Positions 52,339-64,000 of a stretch of DNA of 64,000 nt are shown here, one piece after another; position 1 is the stretch's first letter, and every line of letters begins with the position of its first letter. The notes beneath the pieces were generated by a model. It made no database searches, was not told where the DNA came from, and saw nothing but the letters and a program-made list of their open reading frames with translations. The stretch is from positions 6,758,001-6,822,000 of the forward strand of contig NZ_CP065997.1 of assembly GCF_016127315.1 (NCBI RefSeq), read 5' to 3'. The translations under genes and the position numbers were made by a program. The DNA is from Achromobacter deleyi. Its GTDB lineage: Bacteria > Pseudomonadota > Gammaproteobacteria > Burkholderiales > Burkholderiaceae_B.

Positions 52339-53568
52339 TCAGCCCGCGCCGTGCAGGGCTGGCGAGGCCTGGGGAGCCTGGGAGGCCTTGAGGGCTTTCA
52401 GCGCCTTCTGGCCGGCGCGGCCATCGGCGGGCAGGCCGAGTTCACGCTGCGCCGCGCGCAGGGCTTCGCGGGTGCGCTCGCCGATCGTGCCATCGGGTTC
52501 GCCCAATTCATAGCCGCGGGCAATCAGCAGCCGCTGCAATTCGCGCCGCTCGGCGCGCGACAGCCCCGGATCGTCGGTCGGCCAGGCCTGCGCCAGCGGG
52601 CCGCCGCCGCGCAGGCGGTCGGCCAGGTGCGCAATCGCCAGCGCATAGCTTTCGGCGGCGTTGTAGGAATACAGCGCATCGAAATTACGCGTCACCAGGA
52701 ACGCCGGCCCCTTGGGACCGGCCGGCAGCAGCAGGCCGACAGGCGTATCGCCCGCGGGCAACGGCTTGCCGTCGGCGCGGGTCAACCCCTGGCCGCGCCA
52801 GAAGGACAGCGGACGCTTGTTCTTGCGTCCCGCGCCGGCGGTGTTCGCGCCCGCCGGCAGGATCACCTCGTAGCCCCAGTCCAGGCCGCTGTTCCAGCCG
52901 GCGCGCTTGAGGAAGTTGGCGGTCGAGGCGAGCGCGTCGGGCACGCTGTCGATGAGGTCGCGGCGGCCGTCGCCGTCGAAATCGACCGCCAACCGCAGAT
53001 AGGTCGACGGCATGAACTGGGTCTGGCCGAACGCCCCCGCCCAGGAACCCTTGAGCTTGTCGGGGTCGATGCGCTCGTCCTGCACGATCTTGAGCGCGGC
53101 GAAGAACTCGCCGCGGAAATACGCCTGGCGGCGCCCGAAGCAGGACAGCGTCGACAGCGAGGTCAGCAGCGGCCGCCCGCCCAGCGTGCGGCCATAATTG
53201 CTCTCCACGCCCCACACGGCCGCGATGGTGGCCGGGTCCACACCGTAGCGCGCGGCGGCGCGGTCCAGTTCGGCGCGCCAGCGCTCGATGCCGGCCTTGC
53301 CGTCGGCGACGCGCTCGTCGTCGACCAGCGCCGCCATGTAGTCCCAGATCGGCGTCTTGAATTCGGGCTGCGCATCCAGCAGGCCGATCACCGCCATGTC
53401 GGGCGACAGGCTGGCGGTATGCCGGTCGAACGTGGCGCCCGACACGCCCGCCTTGGCGGCGGGGGCGCGCAATCCGGCCAGGCAAGCGGCGAAGGCGTCG
53501 GCGGCGTGCGCGGCGGGCGCGGACAACGCCAGCATGGCGGCCAGGGGAACGGCGTGGCGAAAGGTCAT
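52339..53568 (-). CDS. Lytic murein transglycosylase with C-terminal peptidoglycan-binding domain
   Basis: A 409-residue periplasmic enzyme. The signal peptide ends near residue 23 (PAAHAAD). The catalytic glutamate is E122 in VWGVESNYGRTLGG; GAFGQTQFMPSTYLRLAVDFDGDG is the family 3 block. A PG_binding_1-like domain (about residues 340-395, LQRLLIARGYELGEPDGTIGERTREALRAAQ) follows, then an Ala/Lys-rich tail. It cleaves glycan strands. It overlaps the DUF455 gene by 4 nt. The open frame further upstream is a shadow of that gene. Confidence 0.92.
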   Translation of the reverse strand: MTFRHAVPLAAMLALSAPAAHAADAFAACLAGLRAPAAKAGVSGATFDRHTASLSPDMAVIGLLDAQPEFKTPIWDYMAALVDDERVADGKAGIERWRAELDRAAARYGVDPATIAAVWGVESNYGRTLGGRPLLTSLSTLSCFGRRQAYFRGEFFAALKIVQDERIDPDKLKGSWAGAFGQTQFMPSTYLRLAVDFDGDGRRDLIDSVPDALASTANFLKRAGWNSGLDWGYEVILPAGANTAGAGRKNKRPLSFWRGQGLTRADGKPLPAGDTPVGLLLPAGPKGPAFLVTRNFDALYSYNAAESYALAIAHLADRLRGGGPLAQAWPTDDPGLSRAERRELQRLLIARGYELGEPDGTIGERTREALRAAQRELGLPADGRAGQKALKALKASQAPQASPALHGAG

Positions 53569-54485
53569 CGAGAAAGCGCTCCTGCGGATGCGTTGGCCGC
53601 GCCGCCATCGGGGCGGCGCTGGCTGTCTTCGGCTTCGCCCGTGACGGCGCGTTTGTCGAGCAAGGCGGCCAGTTCGGCCTCGTCGAAACCCGCCGCGCGG
53701 CGCGCTTCCAGGTTGAAGGGGCCGCGCAGCCGCGGCGCGTTGTAGCGACTGGCCAGCTCGGCATAGCAGGCGACCGGCTCCCTGCCCTGCTCGGCGCACA
53801 GCCGCTTGTACCAATAGTTGCCGATGGCCACGTGGCCGATCTCGTCGCGCAGGATGATGTCGACGATGGCCGCGCTCTGCGCGTCGCCGGCGCCGGCCAG
53901 CTTGTTGCGGATCAGCGGTGACGCATCCAGGCCGCGCGCTTCCAGCGTGCGCGGCACCAGCGCCAGGCGCGCCAGCAGGTCGTCGCAAGTGCGTTCGGCC
54001 ATGTCCCACAGGCCGTTGTGGCCGGGAAAATCGCCATACGCATGACCCAGGTCGGCAAGCCGCCGATTGAGCAGATCGAAATGCGCGGCCTCTTCGCGCG
54101 CCACGCGCAGCCAGTCGCGGTAGAACGCATCCGGCATGCCGGCGAAGCGCCACAGGATGTCCAGCGCCAGATTCACCGCGTTGAATTCGATGTGCGCCAG
54201 CGCGTGCAGCAGCGCCGCGCGGCCCTCCAGGGTCGCCATGGAACGCTGCGGCACCTCGGACGGCGCCACCAGCACCGGCGCGGCGGGCCGCCCCGGCAAT
54301 CCCTCCGGCGTCGCGTAATGCCGCGCGCCCTCCAGCGGGGCGTCGTCGCCAATGGCGCGCACCCGCGCCAGCTTGTCGGCCCAGCCGGTGGCGGCCAGCG
54401 CCTGCAGGGCCTGGGCACGCAGACAGGGCGTGCCGGATTCGTCCGGATCGCTCCCGTCCGCGGGAAGGATCGAATTGCTGTCCAT
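53565..54485 (-). CDS. Ferritin-like DUF455 family protein
   Basis: A 306-residue protein of the COG2833/DUF455 family with a ferritin-like helical fold. Candidate di-metal ligands are in HIEFNAVNLALDI, REEAAHFDLL and LRDEIGHVAIGNYWY. The family is related to MiaE-like hydroxylases; no substrate is established. ATG 54485 (MDSNSILPADG) is chosen; an ATG at 54536 would add 17 residues. It is divergent from the FemAB-like gene (ATG 107 bp away) and coupled to the transglycosylase. Confidence 0.82.
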   Translation of the reverse strand: MDSNSILPADGSDPDESGTPCLRAQALQALAATGWADKLARVRAIGDDAPLEGARHYATPEGLPGRPAAPVLVAPSEVPQRSMATLEGRAALLHALAHIEFNAVNLALDILWRFAGMPDAFYRDWLRVAREEAAHFDLLNRRLADLGHAYGDFPGHNGLWDMAERTCDDLLARLALVPRTLEARGLDASPLIRNKLAGAGDAQSAAIVDIILRDEIGHVAIGNYWYKRLCAEQGREPVACYAELASRYNAPRLRGPFNLEARRAAGFDEAELAALLDKRAVTGEAEDSQRRPDGGAANASAGALSR

Positions 54486-54591
54486 GAGGATTTCCGGTGC
54501 GGGGCGAAACGACGCCACCCGCAAGACAATAACCATGCGCGGTCATCCCGCGCCGCGCGCCATGCGCCAGCGAAGACTTTATCATTCGTCC

Positions 54592-55731
54592 ATGGATTCA
54601 CCGCTTCGCCTGACCATCGAGACCGACCTGTCGCGCATCGACGCCCGCCAATGGGATGCATTGGCCGGAAACCAGCCGTTCCTGCGGCATGCATTCCTGC
54701 ATGCGCTGCACGACACCGGCTGTGCCGCGCCGCGCACCGGCTGGTCGCCGCACTACCTGATGCTGTGGCGCGGCGACGCGCTGGCGGGCGCGGTGCCGCT
54801 CTACCTGAAATCGCATTCGCGCGGCGAGTACGTGTTCGACTACGCCTGGGCCGATGCCTTCGAGCGCCACGGCCTGCGCTACTACCCCAAGCTGCTGGCG
54901 GCCGTGCCGTTCACCCCGGTGTCGGGGCCGCGCCTGCTGGCCGCCAGCGACGAAGACCGCGACACGCTGGTAAGCGGGCTGGTCGCCTTCGCCGAAGAGA
55001 TCCAGGTGTCGTCGCTGCACCTGTTGTTTCCCGCCGCCGCCGACCTGCGCGCCTTGCGCGAGGCCGGCTTCATGGTGCGCGAAAGCGTGCAGTTCCACTG
55101 GACCAATCCGGGCCATGCCGACTTCGACGCTTTCCTGGCGACAATGAGCCACGACAAGCGCAAGAAGATCCGCCAGGACCGCAAGAAAGTGGCGCAGGCC
55201 GGGCTGGCGTTCCGCTGGCTGCGCGGCGCGCAGATCGACGCCGCCGCCCTCGATTTCTTCTATCAGTGCTATTGCCACACCTACTTCAACCACGGCAATC
55301 CGCCCTACCTGAGCCGCGCGTTCTTCCTGCGCGCCTACCGCGAGCAGCCCGACGCCTTCGTGCTGATCCTGGCCGAGCGCGATGGCCAGCCGGTGGCGGC
55401 GGCCCTGAACCTGGCGGGCGGCGACACGCTGTACGGAAGGTATTGGGGCGCGACGGAATATGTGCCGGGTCTGCATTTCGAGACCTGCTACCTGCAGGCC
55501 ATCGCCTACTGCATCGCCAACGGCATGGCGCGCTTCGAGGGCGGTGCGCAGGGGGAACACAAGATGGCGCGCGGACTGCTGCCCACGCCCACCTGGTCGG
55601 CGCACTGGGTCGCCGACCCGCGCTTCGCGGCCGCGATCCAGCATTTTCTCGATGAGGAAACCGCCGCGGTGGATGACTACCTGGGCGAACTCGAGGCCCA
55701 CACGCCGTTCAAGCGCGCGGCCCCGGACTGA
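54592..55731 (+). CDS. FemAB-like GNAT-fold acyltransferase (PF04339)
   Basis: A 379-residue protein of the peptidogalycan biosynthesis/recognition (DUF482, FemAB-like) family. Typical blocks are HAFLHALHDTGCAAPRTGWSPHYL, YLKSHSRGEYVFDYAWADAF, MSHDKRKKIRQDRKKV, ALNLAGGDTLYGRYWGATE and FEGGAQGEHKMARGLLPTPTWSAHW. The family probably transfers an acyl or aminoacyl group, but its substrate is unknown. It is convergent with the DUF1854 gene, 4 bp between stops. Confidence 0.88.
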   Translation: MDSPLRLTIETDLSRIDARQWDALAGNQPFLRHAFLHALHDTGCAAPRTGWSPHYLMLWRGDALAGAVPLYLKSHSRGEYVFDYAWADAFERHGLRYYPKLLAAVPFTPVSGPRLLAASDEDRDTLVSGLVAFAEEIQVSSLHLLFPAAADLRALREAGFMVRESVQFHWTNPGHADFDAFLATMSHDKRKKIRQDRKKVAQAGLAFRWLRGAQIDAAALDFFYQCYCHTYFNHGNPPYLSRAFFLRAYREQPDAFVLILAERDGQPVAAALNLAGGDTLYGRYWGATEYVPGLHFETCYLQAIAYCIANGMARFEGGAQGEHKMARGLLPTPTWSAHWVADPRFAAAIQHFLDEETAAVDDYLGELEAHTPFKRAAPD

Positions 55732-55735
55732 CCGC

Positions 55736-56206
55736 TCAGAGGAAGCGGTCGAGCAGCTTGCGGCTGTGCTTGTCGAGCGACAGGATGTCGCGCACCAGGT
55801 AGAAGATGCCGTGGCTGTCGGCGATCAACAGTGTCTGCGGGCTGAGGCGGCGGATGTCCTCTTCGCCGCGCAGCGTGAAGCGGGTGGCGCCGCGATCGGT
55901 CTCGACCTGCCAGACGCTGGGCGTGGCGAAGGTGGACACGCTGGCCAGCTTGCGGATCTCGGGCATGAATTCCCGGCCGGCCAGTTCCTCTTCGATCAGG
56001 GCGCGCTCGCCGGCGGGCACGTCGGCCAGCCGTTCGATCCACACCAGTTCCCGGCCGTCGCCGGTCACCAGCGACAGCCCGCGATCAGCCTCGCTGATCG
56101 GAAAGGCCCGCACCGGGATCACGCCTTCGTGCGCGACGCCGTCGGCACCCTGGAACACCAAACGCCCGAACGCATTGCGTCGCAGCTGAAAAACGGGAAG
56201 CGTCAT
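55736..56206 (-). CDS. DUF1854 protein associated with cyanophycin loci
   Basis: A 156-residue soluble protein: MTLPVFQLRRNAFGRLVF, then GVIPVRAFPISEADRGLSLV and ELVWIERLADVPAGERALIEEELAGREFMPEI, matching DUF1854. No catalytic motif, signal or membrane helix is visible. It follows the ABC exporter by 14 bp, so the two are cotranscribed and divergent from cphA'-cphA. DUF1854 has been noted beside cyanophycin genes; its molecular role is not established. A peptide-binding or adaptor role for the exporter is my inference. Confidence 0.85.
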   Translation of the reverse strand: MTLPVFQLRRNAFGRLVFQGADGVAHEGVIPVRAFPISEADRGLSLVTGDGRELVWIERLADVPAGERALIEEELAGREFMPEIRKLASVSTFATPSVWQVETDRGATRFTLRGEEDIRRLSPQTLLIADSHGIFYLVRDILSLDKHSRKLLDRFL

Positions 56207-56220
56207 GACGGTTATCTCGC

Positions 56221-58506
56221 TCAGGCCACGGCGGCCATGTCTTCGCTGCCGGAGGCCTGCGCGTCCGCTTCGTTCTGGCGCGCCTGCGCCTGGTACAGGC
56301 GGTAGTAGGCGCCTTCACGCGCCATCAGTTCCTCATGCGGGCCCTGCTCCACGATCTGGCCACGGTCCAGCACCACCAGCCGGTCGGCCTTGCGCAAGGT
56401 GCTCAGGCGGTGGGCGATGGCGATGGTGGTGCGGCCGCGCACCAGGTTGTCGAGCGCCTTCTGGATTTCCTTCTCGGTGGTGGTGTCCACCGACGAAGTC
56501 GCTTCGTCCAGGATCAGGATGCGCGGATCGATCAGCAGCGCGCGCGCGATCGAGATGCGCTGGCGTTCGCCGCCGGACAGCGCCTGGCCGCGCTCGCCGA
56601 CCAGCGAGTCGTAGCCATGCGGCAGCCGCAGGATGAACTCATGCGCGTGGGCGGCGCGAGCCGCGGCCACGATCTCGTCGCGGGTCGCGTCCGGCTTGCC
56701 GTAGGCGATGTTCTCGGCGATGGTGCCGAAGAACAGGAAGGGTTCCTGCAGCACCAGCCCGATGTTGCGGCGGTAGTCGGCCACCCGCACCGAGCGGATG
56801 TCGGCGCCGTCCACCAGGATCGCGCCTTCCGACACGTCGTAGAAGCGGCAGATCAGGTTGATCAGGGTGCTCTTGCCCGAGCCGCTGTGCCCCACCAGGC
56901 CGATCATCTCGCCGGGGGCGATGCTCAGGTCCAGGCCGCGGATGACCTGGCGGTTGCCGTAGCGGAAACCGACGTCGCGCAATTCGATGCGGCCGTTGAT
57001 CTGTGGCAGCCTGGCCGGGTTCTGCGGTTCCGGCACGCTGGAGACGTGATCCAGGATATCGAAGATGCGCTTGGCGCCGGCAGCCGCCTTCTGCGTCACG
57101 GACACGATACGGCTCATCGAATCCAGGCGGGTGTAGAAGCGCCCGATGTACGCCAGGAACGCCGCCAGCACGCCCACCGTGATCTGCTTCTGCGAGACCT
57201 GCCAGATGCCGAAGATCCACACCACCAGCAGCCCGACCTCGGTCAGCATCGTGACCGTGGGCGAGAACAGCGACCAGGTGGTGTTGACCCGGTCGTTCAC
57301 TTCCAGGTTGCGGTTGTTGGCCTCGCGGAAACGCGCCACTTCGCGCTTTTCCTGGGCGAAGGCCTTGACCACGCGGATGCCCGGAATGGTGTCGGCCAGC
57401 ACGTTGGTGATCTCCGACCAGATACGGTCGACCTTCTCGAAGCCATGGCGCAGGCGATCACGCACCGCATGGATCATCCAGATGATGAACGGCAGCGGCA
57501 CCAGCGTGACCAGCGCCAGCCACGGATTGATCGACACCAGAATCGCCGCGGTCATGGCGATCATCAGGATGTCGTTGGCGAAATCGAGCAGGTGCAGCGA
57601 CAGGAACACGCAGATGCGGTCGGTCTCGCTGCCGATGCGGGAAATCAGGTCGCCGGTGCGCTTGCCGCCGAAATACTCCAGCGACAGCTGCTGCAGGTGC
57701 TCATAGGTGGTGGTGCGCAGGTCGGCGCCGATGCGCTCGCTGACCCAGGCCAGGATGTAGGTCCGCGCCCAACCCAGCCCCCAGGCCAGGAAGGCCGAGC
57801 CGAGCAGCCCGCCCAGGTACAGGCGAACCTTGCTGTAGTCGATGGGCGCGCCGTTCTGGAACGGAATCAGCACGTCGTCCATCAGCGGCATGGTCAGGTA
57901 CGGCGGCACCAGGGCCGCCGCAGTGCCCATCAGGGTCAGCAGGAAGCCGGCCAGCAACGGCAGGCGGTACGGCCGCGCGAAACGCCACAGGCGCAGCAGC
58001 GCCCAGGTGGTGGACGGCGCCGCCTGCTCCTGGTTGCAGGTGGGACATTCGTCCTGGCCCGCGGGGATGGCGTTATTGTAGATGGTGCACTGGCGTTCGC
58101 CCGCCTCGGCTTCCGGCTGGCCAGACAGGCGGATCGCCTGCTGCGCCTCGAACTGGCCCAGCAGCCGCAGCGCGGCCGGGTTGCAGGCCAGCGTGAAACG
58201 CCAGATGCCCAGGCGCGCGGTGTCGTCGTGCAGTTCCAGCACGGCGGCGCCGGCGTGGTCGGAAAGATTCAGGGACAGTTGGGGACCGTACGCCCAGGAT
58301 TCCCAGCCGGTATCGGCCGGATTGCGGGCGATCACGCGGCGGTCGGTGACCGCGACCAGGCCGGGCTGGAACTTCAGCCGCTGATCCAGGTCAATTTCAA
58401 CCCAGGCCAGCAGGGTTTCATCCTGCGCGAGTTCGGCGCGGATTTCATCCCGCCAGCGGGCAGGAAAGGCTTCGGCTAGGCCGGAAAGCAGGTGTGGTTT
58501 TTTCAT
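56221..58506 (-). CDS. ABC exporter (fused TMD-NBD) of the cyanophycin locus
   Basis: A 761-residue half-transporter. Residues ~1-130 form a PH-like cytoplasmic domain (LLAWVEIDLDQRLKFQPGLVAVTDRRVIAR). A zinc-ribbon-like piece with C140, C154 and C157 follows. The six-helix ABC_membrane domain is at ~180-480, and the NBD at ~515-745 has GLVGHSGSGKST, LSGGERQR and ILILDEATSSVD. It probably works as a homodimer moving a peptide or lipid-like substrate outward; the substrate is unproven. ATG 58506 (MKKPHLLSGLAEAFPARW) opens the gene, divergent from cphA'. Confidence 0.9.
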   Translation of the reverse strand: MKKPHLLSGLAEAFPARWRDEIRAELAQDETLLAWVEIDLDQRLKFQPGLVAVTDRRVIARNPADTGWESWAYGPQLSLNLSDHAGAAVLELHDDTARLGIWRFTLACNPAALRLLGQFEAQQAIRLSGQPEAEAGERQCTIYNNAIPAGQDECPTCNQEQAAPSTTWALLRLWRFARPYRLPLLAGFLLTLMGTAAALVPPYLTMPLMDDVLIPFQNGAPIDYSKVRLYLGGLLGSAFLAWGLGWARTYILAWVSERIGADLRTTTYEHLQQLSLEYFGGKRTGDLISRIGSETDRICVFLSLHLLDFANDILMIAMTAAILVSINPWLALVTLVPLPFIIWMIHAVRDRLRHGFEKVDRIWSEITNVLADTIPGIRVVKAFAQEKREVARFREANNRNLEVNDRVNTTWSLFSPTVTMLTEVGLLVVWIFGIWQVSQKQITVGVLAAFLAYIGRFYTRLDSMSRIVSVTQKAAAGAKRIFDILDHVSSVPEPQNPARLPQINGRIELRDVGFRYGNRQVIRGLDLSIAPGEMIGLVGHSGSGKSTLINLICRFYDVSEGAILVDGADIRSVRVADYRRNIGLVLQEPFLFFGTIAENIAYGKPDATRDEIVAAARAAHAHEFILRLPHGYDSLVGERGQALSGGERQRISIARALLIDPRILILDEATSSVDTTTEKEIQKALDNLVRGRTTIAIAHRLSTLRKADRLVVLDRGQIVEQGPHEELMAREGAYYRLYQAQARQNEADAQASGSEDMAAVA

Positions 58507-58604
58507 TAGAACGCATACCGGGCCAGGACTCTGCCCTACAAGGCGGCGACGGCATGCCAACCCCGGGCTGGCAACGTGTCCCTTCCTTACAACACAACGA
58601 GTTC

Positions 58605-58620
58605 ACGCCTTTGAAGGCGT
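58605..58620. promoter_or_regulatory. Inverted repeat in the divergent cph control region
   Basis: ACGCCTT (58605-58611) and AAGGCGT (58614-58620) with a 2-bp centre lie directly upstream of TATAGT (58623-58628), a possible -10 reading toward cphA'. A further AAGGCG half-site occurs near 58689 and a CTAATTAG palindrome at 58643-58650. Placement fits an operator for both divergent units. Confidence 0.35.
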
Positions 58621-58766
58621 CGTATAGTATCAGCCGATTTTTCTAATTAGGAATATCTGGGATCCCCCACTCGTTGGCATTATTCTTAAGGCGCAACCCC
58701 AATAAATTCGCGGTCTTGCATAGGGGCGTCCGCGCGTGCCAACCTGCTTCTCAAGTAAATTAAAAC

Positions 58767-61382
58767 ATGAAAAAGAAAGACATTGAATTTCTCGATGTCG
58801 TGGCTTTGCGCGGCCCGAACATTTGGACGTACCGTCCGGTACTTGAGGCGTGGGTGGATATCGGCGAACTGGAGGACTACCCCTCCAACACGATCCCCGG
58901 TTTTTACGAGCGCCTGACCGCGTGGCTGCCGACCCTGATCGAGCACCGCTGCAGCCCGGGCGTGCGGGGCGGCTTCCTGTCCCGCGTCAAGGAAGGCACC
59001 TGGCCCGGCCACATTCTCGAACATGTCACATTGGAATTGCAGAATCTGGCCGGTTTGCGCGGCGGCTTCGGCAAGGCCCGTGAAACCTCCACCCGCGGCG
59101 TCTACAAGGTCGTCGTGCGCGCCTGGCAGGAACAGGTCACCCGCACCGCCCTGAACGAAGGCCGCGACCTGGTCATGGCCGCCATCGAAGACCGTCCGTT
59201 CGACGTCGACGCCGCCGTGGCGCGCCTGCGCCGGCTGGTCGACAAGCACTGCCTGGGTCCCAGCACCGCCTGCATCGTCGATGCCGCCGACGACCGCGAC
59301 ATCCCCTACATCCGCCTGTTCGAAGGCAACCTGGTGCAGTTCGGCTACGGCTCGCGCCAGCGCCGCATCTGGACGGCCGAGACCGACCGCACCAGCGCCA
59401 TCGCCGAAGGCATTTCGCGCGACAAGGACCTGACCAAGGAACTGCTCTCGACCTGCGGCGTGCCGGTGCCCGAAGGCCGCCTGGTCGACAGCGAGGACGA
59501 CGCCTGGTCGGCCGCCGAGGACATCGGCCTGCCGGTGGTGGTCAAGCCGTATGACGGCAACCACGGCCGCGGCGTGTTCACCAACCTGACCACCCGCGAA
59601 GAAGTCATTTCCGCCTACCGCGTCGCCGTCGACGAAGGCAGCGGCGTCATCGTCGAGCGCTTCGTGCTGGGCAACGAGCACCGCCTGCTGGTGGTGGGCA
59701 ACCGCATGGTGGCAGCCGCCGCCGGCGAGCCGGCCTGGGTCACGGGCGACGGCAAGTCCACCCTCACCGAACTGATCGACCACCAGATCAACACCGACCC
59801 GCGCCGCGGCCGCACCGAAAACCATCCGCTCAATCCGGTGCGACTGGATTCGGCCGCGCGCCTCGAGATCGCTCGCCAGGGCCTGACGGAAGAAAGCGTG
59901 CCGGCCGACGGCCAGCGGGTGCTGGTGCAACGCAGCGGCAACGTCGCCTTCGACGTCACCGATCGCGTGCACCCCAGCGTCGCCGCCACCGTGACCCTGG
60001 CCGCCCGCGTGGTCGGCCTGGATATCGCCGGCGTCGACCTGGTGGCCGAAGACATCTCGCGCCCGCTGGACGAACAGCGCGGCGCCATCGTCGAAGTCAA
60101 CGCCGGCCCCGGCCTGCTGATGCACCTGAAGCCGGCCGACGGCACCCCGCGCCCGGTCGGCCACGCCATCGTCGATCACCTGTTCCCCGAAGGCGACGCC
60201 GGCCGCATTCCCATCGTCGGCGTCACCGGCACCAACGGCAAGACCGTGGTGGCGCGCCTGGTCGCGCGCCTCTTGCACCTGTCGGGCAAGCGCACCGGCC
60301 TGGCCTGCAGCGAGGGTCTGTACCTCGACCGCCGCCTGGTGCAGAAGGGCGACCGCGCCGACTTCGCGTCCGGCACCCGCGTGCTGATGAACCGCAACGT
60401 CGACGCCGCCGTCATCGAGAACGACAGCGGCGTGATCCTCGGCCAGGGCCTGGCATATGACCGCTGCCAGGTCGGCGTGGTCACCAACATCGACGACGCC
60501 GACCATCTCGGCGATTTCGACATCAACGAAACGGAGCGCATGTTCAATGTGTTCCGCACCCAGGTCGACGTGGTGCTGCCGACCGGCGCCGCGGTGCTCA
60601 ACGCGCGCGATCCGCGCGTGGTGGAAATGGCCGAGCTGTCCGACGGCGCCGTGATCTTCTTCGGCATCGACCCGGCCCTGCCCGCCATCACCGCCCACCT
60701 GCAGGAGGATGGCCGCGCCGTGTTCGTGCGCGACGGCGCCATCGTGCTGGCGCAAGGCGCGCGTGAAGAACGCCTGGCCGACGTCGCCGCGATCCCGCTC
60801 ACGCACGGCGGCCGCGTCGCCTTCCAGGTCGAGAACGTGCTGGCGGCCGTCGGCGCGGCCTGGGCGCTCGACATTCCGGTCGAACTGATCCGCGCCGGCA
60901 TCGAGACCTTCGACATCGACCAGGCCGACGCGCCCTGGCAGTTCACGCTGTTCGAGCGCAACGGCAGCACTGTGGTGGTGGACGACGTCCACAACGCCTC
61001 CGCGCTGCGTCCGCTCATCACCGCCATCGACCAGTTCCCGTCGACCACCCGCGCCGCCGTGTATTCGGCCGGCGCCGACCGCCGCGATGCCGACCTGATC
61101 GAACAGGGCAAGCTGCTGGGCGATGCCTTCGACCGCGTGGTGCTGTACGACGACACCACCGTCACCAGCAAGCGCCCCGCCGGCCAGGCGCGCGCGCTGC
61201 TGCGCCAGGGCCTGGAGCAAGGCAGCCGCGTCAAGCAGATCCTGGACGAACCCGACCATGGCAAAGCCATCGAGAGCCAGCTCGCCGGCATCGCGGCGGG
61301 CGACTTCGTCCTGCTGCAGTCCGACGAGGCCTTCTCCGGCCCCACCATCGATCTCGTCCGCCGCTGGATCCAGCAACACTGA
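58767..61382 (+). CDS. cphA': Cyanophycin synthetase homologue CphA'
   Basis: An 871-residue homologue with the three cyanophycin synthetase parts. The N domain covers ~1-170. The ATP-grasp domain (~190-475) has LPVVVKPYDGNHGRGV and IVEVNAGPGLLMHL. The Mur-ligase domain (from ~480) has a P-loop VTGTNGKT. Several Mur-domain motifs differ from canonical CphA: ENDSGVILGQGL in place of ETARGGILREGL, and DIDQADAPWQFT in place of NDAQTAPGRFN. It may have a different second substrate or a helper role. No Shine-Dalgarno sequence precedes the ATG, which lies in an AT-rich leader. It is followed 63 bp later by cphA. Confidence 0.9.
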   Translation: MKKKDIEFLDVVALRGPNIWTYRPVLEAWVDIGELEDYPSNTIPGFYERLTAWLPTLIEHRCSPGVRGGFLSRVKEGTWPGHILEHVTLELQNLAGLRGGFGKARETSTRGVYKVVVRAWQEQVTRTALNEGRDLVMAAIEDRPFDVDAAVARLRRLVDKHCLGPSTACIVDAADDRDIPYIRLFEGNLVQFGYGSRQRRIWTAETDRTSAIAEGISRDKDLTKELLSTCGVPVPEGRLVDSEDDAWSAAEDIGLPVVVKPYDGNHGRGVFTNLTTREEVISAYRVAVDEGSGVIVERFVLGNEHRLLVVGNRMVAAAAGEPAWVTGDGKSTLTELIDHQINTDPRRGRTENHPLNPVRLDSAARLEIARQGLTEESVPADGQRVLVQRSGNVAFDVTDRVHPSVAATVTLAARVVGLDIAGVDLVAEDISRPLDEQRGAIVEVNAGPGLLMHLKPADGTPRPVGHAIVDHLFPEGDAGRIPIVGVTGTNGKTVVARLVARLLHLSGKRTGLACSEGLYLDRRLVQKGDRADFASGTRVLMNRNVDAAVIENDSGVILGQGLAYDRCQVGVVTNIDDADHLGDFDINETERMFNVFRTQVDVVLPTGAAVLNARDPRVVEMAELSDGAVIFFGIDPALPAITAHLQEDGRAVFVRDGAIVLAQGAREERLADVAAIPLTHGGRVAFQVENVLAAVGAAWALDIPVELIRAGIETFDIDQADAPWQFTLFERNGSTVVVDDVHNASALRPLITAIDQFPSTTRAAVYSAGADRRDADLIEQGKLLGDAFDRVVLYDDTTVTSKRPAGQARALLRQGLEQGSRVKQILDEPDHGKAIESQLAGIAAGDFVLLQSDEAFSGPTIDLVRRWIQQH

Positions 61383-61445
61383 CATCATCGTGCGCGCCGC
61401 GGCGACCCGCCGCGGCCGCGCGCAAGCTAGACAGGAATACCTGCC

Positions 61446-64000
61446 ATGGAAGTTTCCCGTATCCGAGCACTGCGCGGCCCCAACCTGTGGAGCAAGAACA
61501 CGGCAATCGAGGCCATCGTGTCATGCGCCGACGCCGAATGCTCGATCGACACCCTGCCCGACTTTGAAGCCCGCCTGCGCGCGCGCCTGCCGCAGACCGG
61601 CCTGCTGCGCCCCGAAGGCCACCAGGGCGCGGTCTCGATCGCGCACGTGCTGCAGATCGTCTCGCTGACGCTGCAGGCCTATGCCGGCTGCCCCGTCACG
61701 TTCGGCCGCGCCTCGTCCACCATCGAGCCCGGCGTGTTCCAGGTGGTGGTGGAATACAGCGAGGAAGAAGTCGGCCGTCTCGCCATGGACCTGGCCCAGC
61801 AGCTGGTGCAGGCCGCGCTGGACGACACCCCGTTCGACCTGGCCGACGCCCTCAAGCGCCTGCGCGAGCTGGACGAGGACGTGCGCCTGGGCCCCAGCAC
61901 CGGCTCCATCGTCAACGCCGCCACTGTCCGCAACATTCCGTACCGCCGCCTGACGCAAGGCAGCATGGTGCAGTTCGGCTGGGGCAGCAAGCAGCGCCGC
62001 ATCCAGGCCGCCGAAACCGACCTGACCAGCGCCATCTCCGAATCGATCGCGCAGGACAAGGACCTGACCAAGATGCTGCTGGACGCGGCCGGCGTGCCGG
62101 TGCCGCTGGGCCGCTCGGTCACCACCGCCGAAGACGCCTGGGCCGCGGCCCAGGAGCTGGGCGGCCCGGTGGTCGTCAAGCCGCGCGACGGCAGCCAGGG
62201 CCGCGGCGTGGCGGTCAACATCGAAACGCGCGAGCGCGTGATCCAGGCCTTCGAAGTGGCCGAGGAGATCAGCTCCGAAGTCATCGTCGAACGCTACATC
62301 CCGGGCCACGATTTCCGCCTGCTGGTGGTGGGCGGCACGCTGGTCGCCGCCTCGCGCCGCGATCCGCCGCAAGTCACCGGCGACGGCGTGCAGACCATCC
62401 GCCAACTGGTGGACCAGGTCAACGCCGACCCGCTGCGCGGCGACGGCCACGCCACCTCGCTGACCAAGATCCGCTTCGACGACATCGCGCTGGCCACGCT
62501 GAAAAAGCAGGGCTTCGACGCCGATTCGGTGCCGCCTCCCGGCACCCTGATCTTCCTGCGCAACAACGCCAACCTCAGCACCGGCGGCTCGGCCACCGAC
62601 GTCACCGATGAAGTGCACCCCGAGATGGCGGCGCGCGCGGTGTCGGCGGCACGCATGATCGGCCTGGACATCTGCGGCGTCGACGTGGTGGCCGAAAGCG
62701 TGCACTACCCGCTCGAGGACCAGAACGGCGGCGTGGTCGAAGTGAACGCCGCGCCCGGCCTGCGCATGCACCTGAACCCCTCGTTCGGCAAAGGCCGCGC
62801 GGTGGGCGAAGCCATCATCGCCAACATGTACGCCGACGGCGACGACGGCCGCATCCCGGTCGTCGCGGTGGCCGGCACCAACGGCAAGACCACCACGGTG
62901 CGCCTGACCGCCCACATCCTGGGCACGGCCGGCAACCGCGTCGGCATGACCAACTCCGACGGCGTCTACGTCGACAACCTGCGCATCGACACCGGCGACT
63001 GCAGCGGCCCGCGCAGCGCCCGCAGCGTGCTGATGCACCCGGACGTCGACGCCGCCGTTTTCGAGACCGCGCGCGGCGGCATCCTGCGCGAAGGCCTGGC
63101 CTTCGACCGCTGCAACGTCGCCATCGTCACCAACATCGGCATGGGCGATCACCTCGGGCTGGGCTACATCAGCACCGTCGAGGACCTGGCCGTGGTCAAG
63201 CGCGTGATCGTGCAGCACGTGCATCCGAGCGGCACCGCCGTGCTCAATGCCGCCGATCCCATCGTGGCGGAGATGGCCCACAGCTGCCCCGGCTCGATCA
63301 CCTACTTCGCCGAGGACCGCAACCATCCGGTCATGGCGACGCACCGCGCCCAGGGCCTGCGCGTGGTCTACCGCGACGGCGATGCCATCGTCGCGGCCCA
63401 GGGCACCGAGGAAACCCGTTTCCCGCTGGCCGAGATCCCGCTCACGCGCAACGGCACCATCGTGTTCCAGGTCGAAAACACCATGGCCTCGATCGCCGCG
63501 GCCTGGGCGCTGAACCTGCACTGGAGCATCGTGCGCCGCGGCCTGGCCACGTTCGTCAACGACGCCCAGACCGCGCCCGGCCGCTTCAACGTGTTCGACT
63601 ATCGCGGCGCCACCGTGATCGCCGACTACGGTCACAATCCCGATGCGATCCTGGCGCTGGTGCGCGCGGTCGACGCCATGCCCGCCAAGCGCCGCTCGGT
63701 GGTCATCAGCGGCGCCGGCGACCGCCGCGACGAAGACATCCGCATGCAGACCGAGATCCTCGGCGGCGCCTTCGACGACGTGCTGCTGTACCAGGACCAA
63801 TGCCAGCGCGGCCGCGAAGATGGCGAAGTGCTGGCGCTGCTGCAGCAAGGCCTGGTCAACGCCAGCCGCACCCGCCACATCGAGGAGATCCACGGCGAGT
63901 TCCTGGCGATCGACACGGCGCTGGCGCGCCTGGGCGCCGGCGACCTGTGCCTGATCCTGGTGGACCAGGTGGAAGAGGCGCTGGCGCACATCGCCCAACG
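61446..64000 (+). CDS. cphA: Cyanophycin synthetase CphA (3' end beyond the window)
   Basis: 851 codons are visible and no stop is reached; the family is about 855-900 residues, so nearly all is here. N domain ~1-160 (MEVSRIRALRGPNLWSKNTAIEA); ATP-grasp ~190-470 (GGPVVVKPRDGSQGRGVAV, VVEVNAAPGLRMHLNPS); Mur-ligase domain with P-loop VAGTNGKTTTVRL (about 477), ETARGGILREGL (about 539) and NDAQTAPGRFN (about 703). It polymerises aspartate and arginine into multi-L-arginyl-poly-aspartate using ATP. All canonical motifs are intact. An AGGAATACC precedes the ATG. Confidence 0.95.
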   Translation, partial: MEVSRIRALRGPNLWSKNTAIEAIVSCADAECSIDTLPDFEARLRARLPQTGLLRPEGHQGAVSIAHVLQIVSLTLQAYAGCPVTFGRASSTIEPGVFQVVVEYSEEEVGRLAMDLAQQLVQAALDDTPFDLADALKRLRELDEDVRLGPSTGSIVNAATVRNIPYRRLTQGSMVQFGWGSKQRRIQAAETDLTSAISESIAQDKDLTKMLLDAAGVPVPLGRSVTTAEDAWAAAQELGGPVVVKPRDGSQGRGVAVNIETRERVIQAFEVAEEISSEVIVERYIPGHDFRLLVVGGTLVAASRRDPPQVTGDGVQTIRQLVDQVNADPLRGDGHATSLTKIRFDDIALATLKKQGFDADSVPPPGTLIFLRNNANLSTGGSATDVTDEVHPEMAARAVSAARMIGLDICGVDVVAESVHYPLEDQNGGVVEVNAAPGLRMHLNPSFGKGRAVGEAIIANMYADGDDGRIPVVAVAGTNGKTTTVRLTAHILGTAGNRVGMTNSDGVYVDNLRIDTGDCSGPRSARSVLMHPDVDAAVFETARGGILREGLAFDRCNVAIVTNIGMGDHLGLGYISTVEDLAVVKRVIVQHVHPSGTAVLNAADPIVAEMAHSCPGSITYFAEDRNHPVMATHRAQGLRVVYRDGDAIVAAQGTEETRFPLAEIPLTRNGTIVFQVENTMASIAAAWALNLHWSIVRRGLATFVNDAQTAPGRFNVFDYRGATVIADYGHNPDAILALVRAVDAMPAKRRSVVISGAGDRRDEDIRMQTEILGGAFDDVLLYQDQCQRGREDGEVLALLQQGLVNASRTRHIEEIHGEFLAIDTALARLGAGDLCLILVDQVEEALAHIAQ

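Follow-up and report, generated by a model that had tools for sequence, protein, structure and literature searches.

An apparent division of active sites between paired cyanophycin synthetase homologues co-inherited with an ABC transporter and a DUF1854 protein in Achromobacter deleyi

Introduction

What a membrane transporter does beside the genes for making a storage polymer is the question raised by a locus of Achromobacter deleyi, in which two genes of the cyanophycin synthetase family, cphA' and cphA, face the genes of an ATP-binding cassette (ABC) protein and of a DUF1854 protein. The locus lies at the end of the 64,000-nucleotide stretch analysed here (contig NZ_CP065997.1, positions 6,758,001 to 6,822,000), to which we refer as the window. 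The use of the polymer has been left open for betaproteobacterial cphA genes without cyanophycinase (PMC5178258, PMC10687191), and the authors of PMC10687191 call for work on cyanophycin transport genes. Across genomes, the transporter, the DUF1854 protein and the cphA pair appear to be inherited together, and the active sites of the two synthetases seem to be divided between the two proteins in a complementary manner, both being strong results at the level of sequence. The difference between the two active sites was absent from the sequence-only reading of the window that preceded this analysis. The features are as follows.

55736-56206, minus strand: DUF1854 protein, 156 aa (PF08909, E 2.2e-52, 176.8 bits, cut-off 26.8; NF052234, 234.2 bits, cut-off 150)
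56221-58506, minus strand: ABC half-transporter with exporter fold, transmembrane and nucleotide-binding domains in one chain, 761 aa from the ATG at 58506 (NF052233, 1430 bits, cut-off 880)
58012-58506, minus strand: N-terminal part of the ABC protein, putative PH-like domain and cysteine stretch (fold search; alignment and count)
58507-58766, no strand: divergent intergenic region, 260 bp from ATG to ATG (sigma-70 scan; divergent order in relatives)
58767-61382, plus strand: cphA', 871 aa (NF010623, 1291 bits)
61446-64016, plus strand: cphA, 856 aa, its last 16 bases beyond the window end at 64000 (open reading frame (ORF) call)

The sequence-only reading had described this arrangement, with the ABC protein as a fusion of its two domains, and both descriptions were confirmed by the ORF calls, by the NCBIfam and Pfam scores, and by the presence of PF00664 and PF00005 in one chain.

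Co-inheritance of the four genes

The distribution of the genes was followed in 150 genomes of the order and 249 genomes of the phylum, whose counts are not independent events since the genomes share ancestry. PF08909 (DUF1854) is found in 50 of the 150 order genomes, and the transporter family NF052233 at E<=1e-200 in the same 50. The cphA family NF010623 at E<=1e-150 is found in 56, namely those 50 together with G362, G286, G327, G367, G353 and G375. All 50 genomes with the ABC and DUF1854 genes hold a CphA'-type gene, and G362 is the 51st genome with cphA', carrying a cphA'-cphA pair and a 363-aa ABC piece that runs off the contig end. G286, G327, G367 and G353 each have one cphA and no ABC/DUF1854 pair; all four have a cyanophycinase over cut-off, which in three of them lies on one contig with cphA within ~2.2 kb. 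G375 (weak cphA match, 79% complete) and G225, G231 and G086 (loci not fetched) were left out. In the phylum sample, DUF1854 and the ABC family (E<=1e-150) occur in one and the same set of 12 genomes. All of these are also among the 14 with cphA, the remaining two, G083 and G086, lacking the ABC/DUF1854 pair. The sequence-only reading had taken the pairing of polymer synthesis and exporter to be functional. The co-occurrence in the same genomes of both samples speaks for this, with the amendment that within the order sample the pair is tied to the CphA'-type gene pair and not to cphA in general.

This linkage does not depend on close neighbourhood, as it holds with the genes ~0.8 Mb apart in G385; the gene pairs are also separated by ~13 kb in G355 and by 7.7 kb at L114. 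Where ABC, DUF1854 and a cph gene lie on one fetched locus, the order is divergent in 48 of 50 cases, the other two (L088 and L096) having them on one strand. With each ORF taken to begin at its first possible start codon, the ABC and DUF1854 genes are separated by exactly -4 nt at 17 of 52 loci, and at 28 of 52 the value falls between -8 and 3; a 4-nt overlap of the ABC stop and the DUF1854 start is a usual sign of translational coupling. For the window ABC gene, the ORF from the first TTG covers 56221-58560 (minus strand, 779 aa), and the family match opens with residue 30 aligned to profile position 13; the likely start is therefore the ATG at 58506. A control region shared by the two gene pairs, as proposed by the sequence-only reading, is suggested by the divergent arrangement across 260 bp; a sigma-70 scan of the gap returned 0 promoter-like sites.

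The host genome, searched as a single contig of 6.99 Mb, has one DUF1854 match and two cphA matches at E<=1e-150; among protein matches carrying an organism name, the nearest are to Achromobacter. That no cyanophycinase is encoded in the window had been noticed before, and this extends to the whole genome, in which no TIGR02069 match was found at E<=0.001; in this the locus departs from a canonical cphA-cphB storage locus with its cyanophycinase gene. Cyanophycinase is over cut-off in four of the 50 ABC-positive genomes (G298, G342, G310 and G267), and the strong match in G298 adjoins a second, different cphA pair. Both genes of this second pair (L134:4693-11847) are full length and lie on opposite strands near the cyanophycinase; the ABC/DUF1854 cluster is present in G298 as well. 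A missing cyanophycinase is common, as 658 of 1614 cphA1 genomes have a recognised one (PMC10206079).

The four-gene neighbourhood itself is already known. The NCBIfam families NF052233 and NF052234 (release 20) are named as "cyanophycin metabolism-associated" ABC and DUF1854 proteins, and the window proteins score far over their curated cut-offs; the names denote association, and a mechanism was not found in the literature searched. A "Group 1" cphA cluster of activated-sludge bacteria (PMC10687191, 2023) likewise has two cphA genes, an unclassified ABC transporter and no cphB. Its account in section 3.3 of that paper does without DUF1854, the active-site split or co-inheritance, and proposes flanking insertion sequence (IS) elements or a composite transposon. 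The active-site division described below was met in none of the literature examined. A literature search covering few subscription papers found DUF1854 named in no paper, and among the matches listed in searches of the same scope, no title or abstract opening pointed to a paper on a cyanophycin exporter or on a paired or heteromeric cyanophycin synthetase.

Active sites of CphA' and CphA

Residues were mapped on SuCphA1 and TeCphA1, with their roles taken from PMC9262961 and PMC9427784. The 52 CphA' sequences comprise 51 from the order sample and one from G207; the 48 tandem CphA sequences leave out G276 (contig end), G253 and G293 (CphA on unfetched contigs) and G258 (two ORFs), and G185 was counted apart. 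In G258 the CphA gene is split over two overlapping ORFs (L086:9267-11850), and the CphA', ABC and DUF1854 frames are open.

The two proteins differ in a nearly reciprocal way. The N-domain motif Cx19HxxEH is present in 52/52 CphA' versus 0/48 tandem CphA, and an alignment-free pattern search agrees with the alignment; the individual residues C59, H79, E82 and H83 are found in all 52 CphA', and the set is complete in none of the 48 tandem CphA, one of which (L117) has HxxEH without the Cys. For the M-site set K499/T500/E558/R561/D585/H586 the counts are reversed (0/52 CphA' versus 48/48 tandem CphA), and the C-terminal M lid of CphA' is full in five of 52, including the window copy, and partial in two. 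The ATP-grasp core of CphA' is conserved at K220, K261, R309, D431 and E450 (52/52) and at H267 (51/52). Its R323 is replaced by Gly in 51 sequences and Ser in one, and its R458 by Leu in 49 and by other residues in three; R323, R458 and N394 are each kept in 48/48 tandem CphA, in which H267 is found in just two and replaced by Gln in 46.

The window copies follow this pattern. By residue mapping, CphA' has an intact N-domain motif (C62...H82xxE85H86) and ATP-grasp core with the substitutions G320, L451 and S554, and departs from CphA1 in the M set by Ser at R561 and in the G domain by G320 and L451 at R323 and R458. CphA has lost the N-domain motif, keeps the G core and the Asp-holding residues, including R305 and R440, has Q251 at the P-loop-G His (H267), and has an intact M set. 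In TeCphA1, the incoming Asp is held at its side-chain carboxylate by R323 and N394 and at its alpha-carboxylate by R458, and each Ala mutant is impaired (PMC9427784). As CphA' lacks R323 and R458, free Asp is probably not accepted at its G site.

Taken together, these counts argue strongly, as sequence evidence, for active sites that are divided and complementary between CphA' and CphA. The CphA1 proteins of Synechocystis and Thermosynechococcus have the same three-domain architecture and carry all three sites (N, G, M) on a single protein versus two here, and Cx19HxxEH is present in 25/25 cyanobacterial CphA1. The motif is not obligatory for a CphA1, as it is found in 83% of CphA1 at 70% non-redundancy (PMC9262961). 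Seven other CphA sequences were drawn from G083, the second G298 locus and the four genomes of the order with a single cphA. The four N residues are all present in five of them, with a spacer of 21 residues, and the exact Cx19HxxEH is found in 0/7.

Phylogeny and origin

A tree was built from the N and G domains of 55 sequences, taking every third locus (17 CphA' and 17 CphA), seven of the 25 cyanobacterial CphA1, and the six of seven CphA2-like matches that had a locus. CphA' and tandem CphA each form one clade (17 rows each, 100/100), and these are joined together with the CphA of G185 in one clade (100/98), in which G185 branches off first on the CphA' side (98/84). The CphA2 sequences of cyanobacteria fall far outside. 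On this tree, CphA' is the close sister of tandem CphA and not of cyanobacterial CphA2. An assignment of CphA' as a CphA2 orthologue was considered and is rejected on the basis of the tree, in which it forms a separate clade, and of its residues, as the N motif is present. We also noticed that in PMC5178258 the members of an adjacent cphA pair from a betaproteobacterium are called CphA1 and CphA2. Should those two correspond to CphA' and CphA, the label CphA2 would be at odds with our tree.

G185 lies outside the order and is the only one of 48 genomes of its own order with DUF1854. At its locus (L131) ABC and DUF1854 stand beside a CphA that is not CphA'-like and combines N motif and M set, the contig ending inside the CphA gene. 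The simplest story would be that a complete CphA with its transporter came first, followed by duplication with division of labour, and that most CphA' then lost the M lid.

The ABC transporter and the DUF1854 protein

Over-long ORFs were trimmed to the family part before the ABC and DUF1854 alignments. Across 52 aligned members, the ABC protein conserves the ATPase columns that we take to be Walker A, Q-loop, LSGGERQR, Walker B and H-loop. In its half-transporter layout and intact ATPase motifs it resembles MsbA-like exporters, but it scores below the MsbA cut-off (TIGR02203, 469.8 versus 602 bits), carries an extra N-terminal PH-like domain and has a DUF1854 partner.

The sequence-only reading had named a PH domain in this protein. 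In the TTG ORF the first Pfam domain begins no earlier than residue 202, and the support comes instead from the fold predicted for residues 1-165 (predicted local distance difference test score (pLDDT) 88.1, predicted template modelling score (pTM) 0.75). The top Foldseek matches of this model are PH, PTB and FERM structures, with a best E of 1.1e-3 (none <=0.001), and among the best 50 of 1143 matches the probability is 0.98-1.00 and the query template modelling (TM) score 0.29-0.49. The N-terminal part is thus supported as PH-like by predicted fold and not by sequence. It is followed by a cysteine stretch with a four-Cys pattern in 32 of 40 aligned sequences, of which the window copy lacks the second Cys. 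A plasmid search with the N-terminal domain gave no match. In or near the membrane part, the charged residues D308, D312, R456, R460 and R466 are conserved, which gives a hint of a polar substrate.

The AlphaFold model of the DUF1854 protein (pLDDT 87.2, pTM 0.54) has no confident relative in the PDB (best E 7.8e-3, TM <=0.31 among the best 50 of 934 matches), so that no function can be read from its fold, and no catalytic motif was recognised in its conserved columns. Ten proteins with DUF1854 fusions were found, of which eight were inspected. Most appear to stem from frameshifts or from chimeric metagenome reads, and the only fusion reading cleanly is the metagenome protein P0245, an ABC-DUF1854 fusion. 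We consider the DUF1854 protein the probable cytosolic partner of the ABC protein.

Proposed mechanism and alternatives

We propose that the four genes form one module, a two-enzyme system for an Asp-Arg polymer split between CphA' and CphA and provided with its own transporter, to which we give a little less than an even chance. CphA, with a backbone (G) site holding all three Asp-binding residues, an Arg-adding (M) site and a lost primer-making N site, would act as a primer-dependent polymerase. CphA' would clip chains to primers or short oligomers by its metallopeptidase-like N site and might ligate something other than free Asp to chain ends, and the two proteins may form a mixed oligomer. 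More tentatively, and in line with the export idea of the sequence-only reading, short chains or fragments could be moved out of the cytoplasm by the ABC protein together with the DUF1854 subunit, possibly taking over from cyanophycinase, which is missing from most of these genomes. The ABC protein would probably act as a homodimer, with its PH-like domain in the cytosol. A bolder form, which we regard as unlikely, is a CphA'-CphA heteromer in which CphA would build the chain, the N domain of CphA' would clip it and CphA' would ligate a non-Asp nucleophile to its end, the modified or end-capped oligomer being exported by ABC-DUF1854 as a peptide and not kept as a storage granule. The module as proposed, and such a product in particular, would fit R. 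eutropha H16, with two homologues and no cyanophycin seen in the wild type (PMC11362209).

A number of observations weigh against this proposal or parts of it. N394, the third Asp contact, is kept in 47 of 52 CphA', the window copy included, and the M domain of the window CphA' has its full length and differs at R561 and T522 only, the K, T, E, D and H of the set being unchanged. Two of the seven other CphA, and G185, also have Gln at H267, which is therefore no proof of a dead G site; the CphA of G185, with both N motif and M set, indicates that the active-site split is not required for the pairing. Cyanophycinase matches under cut-off are present in the ABC-positive genomes G352, G317 and G253. 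An exporter fold by itself proves neither export nor a particular substrate; among recurring neighbours (ORFs of at least 100 aa in the fetched flanks, mostly ~4 kb), only three clusters occur in at least five loci (8, 7 and 5), and by eye no export partner is among them. According to a review (PMC8560796), cyanophycin was found in Bordetella species, which fits ordinary storage and clashes with the exported peptide, and in Polynucleobacter cyanophycin synthetase rose 1.30-fold in the cold, which was read as storage (PMC7522526). Finally, the plasmid of Gemmatirosa kalamazoonensis carries a related ABC gene (759 aa, 625 bits for NF052233, cut-off 880) followed by DUF1854 (73.6 bits, cut-off 150), and no cphA was found on this 1.1 Mb replicon, the search covering the replicon and not the chromosome. 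The ABC-DUF1854 pair may thus serve a use without cyanophycin. The Gemmatirosa pair (L245) has the gene order of the window and is 39% identical in ABC over residues 14-739 and 36% in DUF1854 over 29-152, but differs in lying under both NCBIfam cut-offs and in the missing cphA; a plasmid search with its DUF1854 returned itself only. Widespread ABC-DUF1854 pairs without any cphA had been named in advance by the sequence-only reading as counting against its interpretation. This is borne out in part, by the pair on this replicon and by Sulfolobus acidocaldarius, which has DUF1854 but did not turn up among the controls with a cphA match at E<=1e-20. DUF1854 is, for its part, found in 0/117 genomes of the cyanobacterial phylum, and is therefore not needed for cyanophycin as such.

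The locus can also be explained in other ways. CphA' may be the missing depolymerase, its N domain degrading stored cyanophycin inside the cell while ABC-DUF1854 handles the overflow of oligomers, arginine or dipeptide, outside synthesis. The N motif conserved in every CphA' while the M set is lost, and the scarcity of cyanophycinase in the window's genome and in the ABC-positive genomes, favour such a role, as do reports of two cphA genes without cyanophycinase (PMC5178258, PMC5670224), one of which infers an alternative pathway. The N-domain activity of SuCphA1, on the other hand, makes primers and is tuned against competing with polymerisation (PMC9262961), and the ATP-grasp core kept in 51-52 of 52 CphA' would be needless in a pure hydrolase, so we hold this explanation to be doubtful. 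That same core is hard to reconcile with CphA' as a decaying duplicate of at most structural or regulatory role: although its M domain is variable and mostly truncated, decay would have removed the N residues (52/52) and the core as well, which makes this explanation highly improbable.

A recycling role, with CphA' polymerising beta-Asp-Arg dipeptides in the manner of cyanobacterial CphA2 and the transporter handling dipeptides, draws on the loss of the M set in both proteins and of R458 in 6/6 CphA2 and 52/52 CphA' (Leu in 49). The six CphA2 sequences, which were assigned by length (~640 aa) and family score and not by annotation, are nevertheless the reverse of CphA' at each remaining point, with R323 kept, Lys at H267 and the N motif absent in 6/6, and as the tree gives no sister clade but places them far outside, this role seems quite improbable. 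It is also conceivable that ABC-DUF1854 moves something unrelated to the polymer, such as a lipid or drug, and shares only its regulation with cphA'-cphA. Outside its own family, the models nearest to the ABC protein are those of general exporters, MsbA for example, and the Gemmatirosa replicon has a related pair without cphA; against this stands the strict co-inheritance with CphA' in the order sample, even when unlinked as in G385, which leaves an unrelated cargo rather improbable.

The proposed division of active sites offers a testable answer to the presence of betaproteobacterial cphA genes without cyanophycinase, with two enzymes in one pathway and an accompanying transporter. It would also mean that counts of cphA genes, as in wastewater surveys, need not equal nitrogen storage.

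Neighbouring genes

Next to the DUF1854 gene, at 53565-55731 of the window, lie genes for a FemAB-like protein (PF04339) and a DUF455 protein, which by clustering are not recurrent in at least five loci. On the other side, ~6-9 kb beyond cphA in the same genome, PhaR-, PhaB- and PhaC-like genes recognised by eye (L002:15041-18188) would make up a polyhydroxyalkanoate storage locus. A ferredoxin-like membrane protein, an Ftr1-like permease and a Tp34-like protein are encoded at L002:11618-14935, and by eye resemble an iron uptake set.

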